A stretch of 64,000 bases of DNA from Kribbella rubisoli (GTDB taxonomy: Bacteria; Actinomycetota; Actinomycetes; Propionibacteriales; Kribbellaceae): NCBI RefSeq assembly GCF_004217145.1, contig NZ_SHKR01000014.1, positions 124,001 through 188,000 on the forward strand, read 5' to 3'. Below, one piece after another: positions 22,875-24,563 of this stretch. The first letter of the stretch is position 1, and each line of letters opens with the position of its first letter. The notes below the pieces were generated by a model. It made no database searches. It was not told where the DNA came from and saw only the letters and a list, made by a program, of their open reading frames with translations. The translations under genes were made by a program, and so were the position numbers.

Positions 22875-23294
22875 CTACTGGTCGGCCATCAGGTTGATCA
22901 GCCGCAGCAGGTCGGCGGTGGCAGGAAGGTTGCCGAGGACGATGACCTTGAGGACGGCACGGTCCTCGTCGTAGATGGCCTCGGCCTTGAGGTTGACCGC
23001 CTCGGGCTGGTTGAGCGCGCCGAGGATGTGCGTGGTGATGCGGTCCGCGGTCGCGCGATCGACGGCGTCGATGTGGACGATGCTCGACGCCTCGACGTGC
23101 CGGGCGGACCGGTCGACGTCGACCACGGCGGTAGGTGCGCCGGTGAACTCCTCGAGGTCCTCGCGGGTGATCCGGTACTGCTTGCCGATCCGCACCGCCT
23201 TGAGGCGGCCGTCGCGGACGTAGTTCCGGATCGTGCGAACGTGCAGCCCCAGCCGATTCGCCACCTGCTCGACCGAGTACAGCTCCTGCGCCAT
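22875..23294 (-). CDS. Excisionase-type helix-turn-helix DNA-binding protein
   Basis: The 139-residue protein has an N-terminal MerR-like/excisionase HTH (residues 5-50; YSVEQVANRLGLHVRTIRNY, then RIGKQYRITREDLEEF). The C-terminal part (about 60-139) is a small alpha/beta domain that may bind a ligand or dimerise. The first domain resembles BldC-like proteins. It is divergent from a DUF4180 gene across an AT-rich gap with a 42-bp palindrome, so it probably regulates both itself and that gene. It converges on the polyprenyl synthase gene three bases away. Confidence 0.88.
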   Translation of the reverse strand: MAQELYSVEQVANRLGLHVRTIRNYVRDGRLKAVRIGKQYRITREDLEEFTGAPTAVVDVDRSARHVEASSIVHIDAVDRATADRITTHILGALNQPEAVNLKAEAIYDEDRAVLKVIVLGNLPATADLLRLINLMADQ

Positions 23295-23315
23295 CTCACT
23301 AGACTATGGCAAGTT

Positions 23316-23357
23316 CCTTAGAATTCCCTATAAATAGCAACAGAGGGATAGATAAGG
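23316..23357. promoter_or_regulatory. 42-bp interrupted palindrome, probable HTH operator
   Basis: CCTTA-N4-TCCCT at 23316-23329 is repeated in inverse orientation as AGGGA-N4-TAAGG at 23344-23357, centred on 23336.5. The stretch is strikingly AT-rich for this genome and contains -10-like TATAAAT and TAAGGT. It lies midway between the divergent HTH gene and the DUF4180 gene, and so is the natural operator for the HTH protein. Confidence 0.7.
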
Positions 23358-23361
23358 TATT

Positions 23362-23724
23362 TTGAAGCACATGGTTGAGCTTGCCGGCGTGAAGGTGTTC
23401 GTCAGTGACACGGCCGTCGCCACCGAGGGCGACGCCGTGCAGCTCATCGTCGACGCGCACTACGCACACGGGGCCGAGTGGATCGCGTTCACGCCGGAGC
23501 AGCTCGGTGACGAGTTCTTCGAACTGCGGACCGGGCTGGCCGGTGCGATCACGCAGAAGTTCGTGATGTACCAGATGGGCCTTGCCGTCGTCGGCGACAT
23601 CTCGTCGCGCGTCGCGGCGAGCAAGCCGCTGGCCGACTGGGTCCGGGAGAGCAACCGCGGCCGCAATCTCTTGTTCGCCGAGGATCTCGACGAGCTGACC
23701 GAGCGCCTACAGGATCGGCAGTGA
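23362..23724 (+). CDS. DUF4180 domain-containing protein
   Basis: The 120-residue alpha/beta protein matches DUF4180, with the typical DAHYAHGAEWIAFTPEQLGDEFFELRTGLAG segment (described here in part) and FVMYQMGLAVVGDIS. The function is unknown; members often occur with HTH regulators, as here. The start could be TTG 23362, four bases after AAGG, or ATG 23371. It overlaps the convergent barstar gene by 18 bases at its 3' end. Confidence 0.85.
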   Translation: MKHMVELAGVKVFVSDTAVATEGDAVQLIVDAHYAHGAEWIAFTPEQLGDEFFELRTGLAGAITQKFVMYQMGLAVVGDISSRVAASKPLADWVRESNRGRNLLFAEDLDELTERLQDRQ

Positions 23725-24141
23725 GCCCAACAGGTCCGGCGCTTCGGCGCCGGCCCGCTCGTGGATGAGGACCCGGAGCTGACCGGAGTTGGTGGTGTCC
23801 TCGGCGAAGATCTGCAGGGCCACGTCGACGGTGTCATGGTCGTGCTCGAGCAGGTGCCGTAGGCCCGACCACAGCACGACCTCGGGCTCTCCGGTCGACC
23901 GGTCGCTGAGCGAGTCGGCCAGCGCGTCCCAGTTCCGGCCGAACCAGCGCGGCAGGTCGAAGGCAGTCGCACACAGGTCCAGGAACCCTGCCTTGTCCTG
24001 GATCTCGGCGGTGTCGAGCAGGACGAATCCGAACCCGGCGTCGGCAGCATCACGGCGTACCTGGTCGGCAGTTGCCGTCGATGGCCAGCGGTAGACGCCC
24101 GGACGGAGCCCGTCCGACAGCAGCGCGCGTAGATCGGTCAT
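23707..24141 (-). CDS. Barstar-family ribonuclease inhibitor
   Basis: The 144-residue protein contains the barstar fold signature DKAGFLDLCATAFDLP followed by WFGRNWDALADSLSD, the segment that plugs the active site of guanyl-specific RNases. Its N-terminal 40 residues are an extension relative to the classical 90-residue barstar. Its ATG overlaps the stop of the RNase Sa-like gene as ATGA, which is the order expected for an RNase and its cytoplasmic immunity protein. The pairing is therefore strongly supported. Confidence 0.92.
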   Translation of the reverse strand: MTDLRALLSDGLRPGVYRWPSTATADQVRRDAADAGFGFVLLDTAEIQDKAGFLDLCATAFDLPRWFGRNWDALADSLSDRSTGEPEVVLWSGLRHLLEHDHDTVDVALQIFAEDTTNSGQLRVLIHERAGAEAPDLLGSLPIL

Positions 24142-24563
24142 GAAGTTCCCCCGTCTTCCGCGATGCGGCGGAAGGACTTGTAGTGGTCGTCCGTGTAGTA
24201 ACGCTCCTGAGCGTTACCGGTCACGATCCGGCGGGCACCACGGTCCTTCTCGCCCGGCGTCTTCACGGTGTACTCGTGGTAGTAGCCGCGGTCGTGCTTC
24301 GGAAGAATCTTCTCAAGATTCCCGAACACCACGCCGTCGCGGCTGTACGGGTACGGTCCGCCCTGGTCGATCAGCTTCAGCGTGGCCTGCGCCTCCTTCG
24401 GCAGGTCGGCCACCGCGACGATCTTGAGACCGCTCTCCGGATCGACGTCGCTGGAGGCCTTCGTGTCCGCCGAGCACCCGAACAGCGATGCCGCCAGGGT
24501 GATCACCAGCATGGCGATCACCACGACCGCGACGATCCGCGCGGCCTTCGGGTTGTTGATCAC
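24138..24563 (-). CDS. RNase Sa/barnase-like guanyl-specific ribonuclease, membrane-anchored
   Basis: The 141-residue protein has an N-terminal hydrophobic segment (residues 9-29) ending in LFGC, so a lipoprotein or membrane tether is possible, although Phe at -2 is not ideal for a lipobox. The catalytic domain (about 46-136) aligns with RNase Sa from memory. Glu97 lies in YYHEYTV, Arg108 in DRGARR, and His127 in YYTDDHY. The Streptomyces enzyme's disulfide cysteines are missing. GTG 24561-24563 overlaps the thiE stop as GTGA, with GGAG eight bases upstream. It should cleave RNA after guanosine outside the cytoplasm. Confidence 0.9.

Follow-up and report, generated by a model that had tools for sequence, protein, structure and literature searches.

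BldC binds direct repeats head to tail, with AATTXXXX(C) as the unit and one helical turn between the protected tracts, and it relies partly on DNA shape (PMC5859096). Each RdfS monomer occupies approximately 10 bp; the protein represses the promoter of its own gene, and a consensus motif was not identified by the authors of the study (PMC11963761). The BldC/Xis class of winged helix-turn-helix (HTH) proteins is wide and its DNA code is poorly defined (PMC11963761, PMC5859096). On the HTH family and the motif treated here, a literature search returned nothing specific. Comparison of the locus with its relatives points to an operator composed of two facing, phased arrays of CCYTA/TARGG boxes, by which the HTH protein probably represses its own gene and the divergent gene in a cooperative manner.

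The site is a 42-bp palindrome at positions 23316-23357 of the window, i.e. of the whole stretch of 64,000 nucleotides (64 kb) that was analyzed. As the original prediction had it, the palindrome is situated between two divergent genes, one for a 139-residue HTH protein (22875-23294, minus strand) and one for a DUF4180 protein (starting at 23362 or 23371 and ending at 23724, plus strand; Pfam PF13788, E 1.8e-32, 112 bits against a gathering cut-off of 25). The left arm reads CCTTA (23316-23320), GAAT and TCCCT (23325-23329), and after 14 bp the right arm follows with AGGGA (23344-23348), TAGA and TAAGG (23353-23357). The two arms had been described as exact inverse copies, which is true of the 5-base blocks but not of the N4 spacers (GAAT versus TCTA in the inverse reading).

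When the window was scanned for CCTTA-N4-TCCCT with no mismatch, only the two arms of the palindrome were found. With up to two mismatches the 64-kb window gave 12 matches, against 18.07 expected, and thus no enrichment. The palindrome was also absent from the output of a general repeat finder, and the case from the window alone is therefore modest. It is the conservation across relatives that places the palindrome beyond chance.

Of 38 genomes of the genus Kribbella, 32 encode the HTH protein. The core of the left half of the palindrome, CCTTAGAATTCCCTATA, was searched for in the same 38 genomes with at most one mismatch allowed, and 31 of them carry it, in one copy each and always directly upstream of the HTH gene, within approximately 75 bp of its start (as judged by eye from the positions). 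The HTH gene is missing from six genomes (G003, G014, G018, G021, G026 and G027), and these have neither CCTTAGAATTCCCTATA nor DUF4180. In G028 the HTH gene (L030) occurs without the motif and DUF4180 (L062) lies approximately 2.4 Mb away, and in G032 both HTH gene and motif are present and DUF4180 is absent. The distance between DUF4180 and the HTH gene is at most about 1.3 kb in 29 of the 30 Kribbella loci compared, and in G058 as well.

Out of 36 loci given to the Kribbella alignment, 31 were aligned with the core, while L030, L062, L064, L069 and L070 were left out for want of it. All 17 columns of the left half, from CCTTA to CCCTATA, are identical in 30 or 31 of the 31 loci, the HTH proteins of which show identities down to 61%, and GAATT and TATAAAT, which belong to the left half outside the boxes, are nearly invariant in Kribbella. 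In the same alignment the right half holds its two boxes less strictly (TANGGTANTTT), and its inner box is weak in several Kribbella species including that of the window. With the left half conserved beyond the boxes and the right inner box weak, a second function of the left half, as a promoter or as a site for another protein, is possible. In two loci from another family of the order (L069 and L070), the HTH proteins of which are approximately 54% identical to that of the window, the palindrome is degenerate with one extra base in the middle (by eye), and the box matrix described below places boxes 10 bp apart in both. Upstream of the isolated DUF4180 gene L062 the right box remains together with a -10-like TAAGGT; a facing pair 18 bp apart at this locus was considered and dropped, since reading of the sequence leaves only the right box and TAAGGT convincing. 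The palindrome is thus conserved where the gene pair occurs in the genus genomes, as had been expected. At the level of sequence we regard it as confirmed that it is a real and conserved control site, and its reading as an operator as very likely right.

To follow the site beyond the genus, genome contigs were scanned for homologues of the HTH protein, and of the 483 relatives obtained the best 80 were kept. They comprise 17 loci of the Kribbella group (L071-L087, one of them titled Streptomyces) and 63 non-Kribbella loci (L088-L150), mostly from other actinobacteria (Amycolatopsis, Nocardia, Streptomyces, Kutzneria and Nonomuraea), with three records titled proteobacterial MAGs. In the light of these relatives each arm appears better read as two CCYTA boxes, head to tail and 10 bp apart, with the two arms facing each other. 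Since the unit across relatives is CCYTA-N5-CCCTA with a 10-bp period, the inner left box of the window is better parsed as CCCTA (23326-23330), facing (T/G)AGGG (23343-23347).

Read in this manner the whole operator (23316-23357, not assigned to a strand) would comprise two facing head-to-tail pairs of boxes with centres at 23318, 23328, 23345 and 23355. The outer left box CCTTA (23316-23320, minus strand) has bases identical in 30 or 31 of 31 loci and a matrix score of 12.3, and the inner left box CCCTA (minus strand), 10 bp from the outer one, is identical in 31 of 31 at each base and scores 17.3. The inner right box, GAGGG (plus strand), is degenerate in the window and falls below the scan cut-off; TAGGG is the majority form in relatives, and columns 27-31 of the Kribbella alignment hold T 27, A 25, G 22, G 24 and G 30 of 31. 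The outer right box TAAGG (23353-23357, plus strand, alignment columns 37-41) scores 17.4.

Among the 63 non-Kribbella loci there are 33 same-strand TANGG/CCNTA pairs exactly 10 bp apart, and 27 of the loci have one, compared to a mean of 0.34 and a maximum of 3 pairs in 200 shuffles and to a single pair in 630 control windows. The same period emerged without reference to any motif, with 50 repeats of 6-mers at lag 10 and 22 at lag 20 as against 1.93 and 1.5 in 60 shuffles. A box matrix was then trained on half of the loci and scored on the other half, and the held-out scores gave 2.51 boxes per 110 bp in the 63 loci versus 0.018 in 1260 control windows, with at least one box in 61 of the 63, where it should be borne in mind that training and test halves contain related species and are not independent samples and that the locus counts are likewise not independent because the homologues are related. 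In the matrix scan 49 of the 65 same-strand spacings proved to be multiples of 10, with 9 others ending in 9 and 7 in 2, while 89 of 93 facing spacings equal 10n+7 or 10n+8, and diverging pairs did not occur in the 63 loci. The unit consensus is TAGGGAAGTT-like. TANGG had been imposed when the matrix sites were collected, and TAGGGA is the most frequent enriched 6-mer without that constraint. The 80 loci, 661,880 bases in all, contain no other phased pair with both scores at least 8.

The number of boxes per locus ranges from none to five, and some loci have boxes on one strand only. At L113 and L130 a box directly upstream of the HTH gene is absent; at L113 DUF4180 is the first gene with the HTH gene after it, and two weak boxes (7.3 and 8.0) stand 10 bp apart upstream of DUF4180. 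Exact 6-mer repeats show no peak at lag 10 in the 17 loci of the Kribbella group, and inverted 6-mers exceed expectation at offsets 18 (11 versus 0.37) and 16 (8 versus 0.28). The matrix from the other genera, applied with a cut-off of 6, picked out a pair of boxes with 10-bp spacing in every one of the 17 left arms.

Residues 4-51 of the HTH protein form a winged HTH of the HTH_17/excise family, with matches to TIGR01764 (E 2.7e-15) and phrog_66 (E 2.2e-11) that make it an excisionase-type HTH_17 domain. In the AlphaFold2 model (62 sequences, pLDDT 88.1, pTM 0.52) they are followed by a beta-alpha-beta-beta-alpha domain at residues 69-138 (window 22881-23090), for which no Pfam or NCBIfam match was obtained at E 0.001. 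In Foldseek nothing reached E 0.001 for the model; the best match was Xis of mycobacteriophage Pukovnik (4j2n, E 5.2e-3), with BldC among the next, and Pukovnik Xis was also the sole match of the HTH sequence profile among solved structures. Alignment of the predicted model to BldC with VIA-align gave Z 8.1 and rmsd 1.4 over 50 residues for 6amk_B, and Z 8.2 and rmsd 2.1 over 54 for 6ama_P. With Z values of up to 10.0, the second domain matches designed ferredoxin folds as well as KH and Pcc1 proteins, which gives no function since this arrangement is common. D109 and G121, both within it, are invariant in the 62-row alignment. Among its charged residues E105, D109 and R112 are invariant and K116 nearly so in an alignment of 18 rows. 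Padloc labeled the winged HTH as mad1 (E 5.5e-13) and also reported MTase_II (E 4.5e-5).

The protein also matches the MerR-like families PF00376 and PF13411, and the two-part half-site had originally been attributed to two dimers or to an extended MerR-like contact. A MerR-type site, at which symmetric dimers on the palindrome would activate or repress by distorting the promoter spacer, with the half-site being two stacked dimers, would be in line with the MerR-like character of HTH_17, with the symmetry of the site and with the several Kribbella loci in which boxes lie upstream of the -10-like element of the HTH gene. However, the long coiled-coil dimerization helix that should follow the HTH is absent from the model, where helices 80-94 and 123-138 belong to the half-ferredoxin-like domain, and symmetric dimers alone are insufficient to account for a box number between none and five, for loci with boxes on one strand and for the predominance of 10-bp spacing. 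We therefore consider MerR-type binding unlikely. Head-to-tail like boxes 10 bp apart, the number of which varies among homologues, replace the stacked dimers as the better description, and they fit a BldC/Xis mode of binding better than MerR dimers.

A candidate -10 element of the HTH gene, TAGTCT (23301-23306, minus strand), is located 6 nt before the ATG, which would imply a leaderless mRNA, and an identical element stands equally far from the HTH start in the homologous loci L071 and L077. For the rightward (DUF4180) promoter the candidate is TAAGGT (23353-23358, plus strand), which overlaps the outer right box; the TANGGT columns in the 31 Kribbella loci hold T 30, A 28, G 26, G 30 and T 28. 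In 14 of the 80 loci TANGGT is found 6-7 nt before a possible start codon of the HTH gene and is then itself a box, and TAGAGT takes its place in three more, whereas TANGGT stands at that distance before only 9 of 20,376 ATG, GTG or TTG triplets elsewhere in the 80 loci. The looser TANNNT 4-10 nt before a possible start codon occurs in 42 of 80, a count made without a control. This suggests leaderless transcription with an outer box serving as -10 element. The ATG at 23371 is probably the start of DUF4180, since the listed TTG at 23362 probably comes too early, only 3 nt past the candidate -10 element, and an ATG is present at or near the position equivalent to 23371 in most aligned Kribbella rows.

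The operator-like site, conserved with the HTH gene, accordingly overlaps candidate promoters on both sides. In several Kribbella loci, that of the window included, the -10-like element of the HTH gene is not a box and the array covers its -35 region, so that activation of the leftward promoter is also conceivable. The simplest reading would nevertheless be occlusion of both promoters and hence repression. A palindrome in a short intergenic gap might also suggest an RNA element or a terminator hairpin instead of a DNA-binding site, but with leaderless promoters the palindrome would not be transcribed, helical phasing is meaningless for a hairpin, and no Rfam match up to E 1 was obtained between 22700 and 24700. 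To this explanation we attach practically no weight.

Further sites were sought by pattern. In the own genome of the window the 22-base left half occurs once with up to three mismatches, i.e. a second site was not found. In eight non-Kribbella genomes TANGGAANNTTNGGGAA with at most one mismatch matched 26 places, compared to 8 for the reversed-pattern control; the matches comprise the HTH locus in five of the eight genomes, a recurrent TATGGACTCTTGGGGAA, and singles that were taken as chance. TATGGACTCTTGGGGAA is present in seven copies in G060 (L165, L170, L175, L176 and L178-L180) and once or twice elsewhere, perhaps within rRNA operons. A stricter pattern matched in two of the eight genomes, at the HTH locus only, and the reversed control also matched once in each of these genomes. 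A three-box pattern gave 26 matches in the 38 Kribbella genomes against 31 for its reversed control, the places listed being all at the HTH locus except for three GC-rich ones (G026, G024 and G007). These pattern searches yielded no clear second site, and weakly diverged targets would escape them.

Seven further HTH_17 loci, all from a single Kribbella genome, were examined, and a phased pair was found in none. Two of these other HTH_17 loci (L199 and L205) have one isolated box each, approximately 50 bp upstream, and related HTH proteins might therefore use similar words. The same seven loci bear on the question of whether the conserved block is the site of a different factor, such as a special sigma factor or another regulator, and stands at the HTH gene by accident. 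Such a factor could supply the extra constraint suggested by the conservation of the left half well past the boxes. Evidence against it is provided by the lack of phased pairs at the seven loci, by the absence of the motif from all six genus genomes that lack the HTH gene, by its single copy per genome, and by a box code that tracks the HTH family across genera and partly to other phyla. An accidental neighbor of this kind seems to us very unlikely, and we retain the HTH protein as the putative owner of the site.

An alpha/beta hydrolase gene directly downstream of the HTH gene and on the same strand is found at 37 of the 63 non-Kribbella loci (a first tally of 40 included L115, L138 and L148, which were removed since the gene is more than 2 kb away). 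DUF4180 lies within 3 kb at 32 of the 63, 30 of these having it downstream on the same strand, and the connection between DUF4180 and the regulator that had been proposed is accordingly genuine and extends beyond the genus. Both genes occur at 14 loci, always in the order HTH, hydrolase, DUF4180, and at least one of them at 55; the eight loci with neither are L108, L111, L115, L126, L127, L130, L144 and L150. A Pfam scan of nine neighbor proteins confirmed two hydrolases (PF00561 and PF12697) and four DUF4180 proteins. The 17 Kribbella-group loci all have DUF4180 and two of them the hydrolase, and at L132 the HTH-DUF4180 pair is divergent as in Kribbella. In the window, barstar and barnase-type ribonuclease genes adjoin DUF4180 (23707-24563), and barstar is seen near the site again in many Kribbella loci.

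DUF4180 itself is rare: when 396 genomes of the phylum were sampled, only 8 carried it, and among the seven besides G000 one (L183) has the HTH gene within the 1.5-kb flanks. The possibility that DUF4180 owns the site was rejected, as the stand-alone loci L181, L182, L184, L185 and L186 lack a box scoring at least 7; the remaining DUF4180 loci have three boxes (L062), one (L064), one (L183, with the HTH gene) and nine scattered ones (L187). In the sequences compared, it is the HTH gene and not the gene pair that the site accompanies, since it is kept in G032 without DUF4180 and outside Kribbella precedes the HTH gene whatever gene follows. The predicted structure of DUF4180 (pLDDT 96.1) gave mostly STAS-type proteins in its top structure rows, and because Z is at most 7.6 a STAS-like fold is suggestive only. 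In the literature searched, DUF4180 appears in one paper (PMC10920822).

When plasmids were searched with the HTH protein, 18 records matched, 11 of them covering at least 80% of the query, and among the 12 matches listed the full-length non-actinobacterial ones are 25-37% identical. One Klebsiella plasmid has HTH, hydrolase and DUF4180 genes in that order, a Paraclostridium plasmid has HTH, DUF4180 and hydrolase, and a second Klebsiella plasmid and a Bosea plasmid have HTH and hydrolase. DUF4180 is hence placed with a regulator and a hydrolase both in actinobacteria and on Klebsiella and Paraclostridium plasmids. Six plasmid loci, five non-actinobacterial ones and L211 from Nonomuraea, were inspected for boxes. 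At L207 a pair of boxes spaced by 10 bp faces a third box 17 bp away, and at L210 (Klebsiella) a pair with the same spacing is opposed by weaker boxes; the pattern is partial at L206, L208 and L211, and at L209 there is no clear one. A class D beta-lactamase gene is near the HTH and hydrolase genes of L206, a Klebsiella plasmid.

The occurrence of homologues on plasmids, the excisionase name of the top family and Pukovnik Xis as the closest solved relative by sequence raise the question of whether the protein could be a recombination directionality factor and the array the att-side binding region of a mobile element. Against this, the recurring neighbors are the hydrolase and DUF4180, the same flanking gene clusters, barstar among them, recur in Kribbella, and none of 61 phage records covers 80% of the query, the eight listed covering 32%, which corresponds to the winged HTH. 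No integrase was recognized among the recurrent neighbor clusters looked at. We consider an excisionase site highly improbable.

We propose instead that the 42-bp operator allows the 139-residue HTH protein to regulate both its own gene and the divergent gene for DUF4180. Each CCYTA/TARGG box would bind one winged-HTH monomer. With boxes one helical turn (10 bp) apart and head to tail, neighboring monomers would line up along the same face of the DNA, in the fashion of BldC, and the two facing arrays would keep a constant helical phase. Both divergent promoters, which are probably leaderless, would have their -10 or -35 regions covered by the arrays, and protein bound there would block RNA polymerase, the outcome being negative autoregulation and co-repression of the neighbor gene. 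The C-terminal half-ferredoxin-like domain may serve as a bridge between the two arrays or as the sensor of a signal. That the HTH protein binds the site, oligomerizes cooperatively and represses is inferred, and so are the role assigned to its C-terminal domain and an inducer.

More tentatively, but as a real possibility, the winged HTH protein with its half-ferredoxin domain, the hydrolase and the STAS-like DUF4180 may constitute a hitherto undescribed cross-phylum module that controls itself by arrays phase-locked through the C-terminal domains. If so, the BldC/Xis class would gain a countable operator code readable from sequence, and repression would be tuned by the length of the arrays and by their facing distance (10n+7 or 10n+8). 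The HTH family offers a strong, natural and repeat-counted operator in dozens of variants, and cooperative head-to-tail binding, phasing and bridging of arrays are therefore directly testable.

Compared with the described systems, the locus shares with classical MerR regulators an N-terminal HTH and a palindromic promoter site, but differs in that the model is devoid of the coiled-coil dimerization helix and in that the site is composed of phased repeats. With RdfS and Pukovnik Xis (4j2n) it shares the HTH_17 winged HTH, and with RdfS in particular approximately 10 bp per monomer, a head-to-tail arrangement and own-promoter repression, as read here. For RdfS a consensus was not found by its authors, whereas the motif here is strong, and in contrast to RdfS and Xis no recombination partner was recognized among the neighbor clusters looked at. 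Streptomyces BldC, of a family that is monomeric in solution and multimerizes head to tail on DNA, is likewise a small actinobacterial MerR-like winged-HTH regulator that uses direct repeats approximately one turn apart and variable in number, and the 10-bp spacing of the sequence boxes is consistent with the BldC type of spacing (direct repeats of approximately 9-10 bp). On the other hand BldC is a single domain of 68 residues, whereas the HTH protein here has a second, half-ferredoxin-like domain at residues 69-138; the unit AATTXXXX(C) of BldC differs from the TAGGGAAGTT-like one found here; and BldC has a regulon, while the pattern searches here gave no clear second site. Finally, unlike those of BldC, the arrays at this locus face each other.
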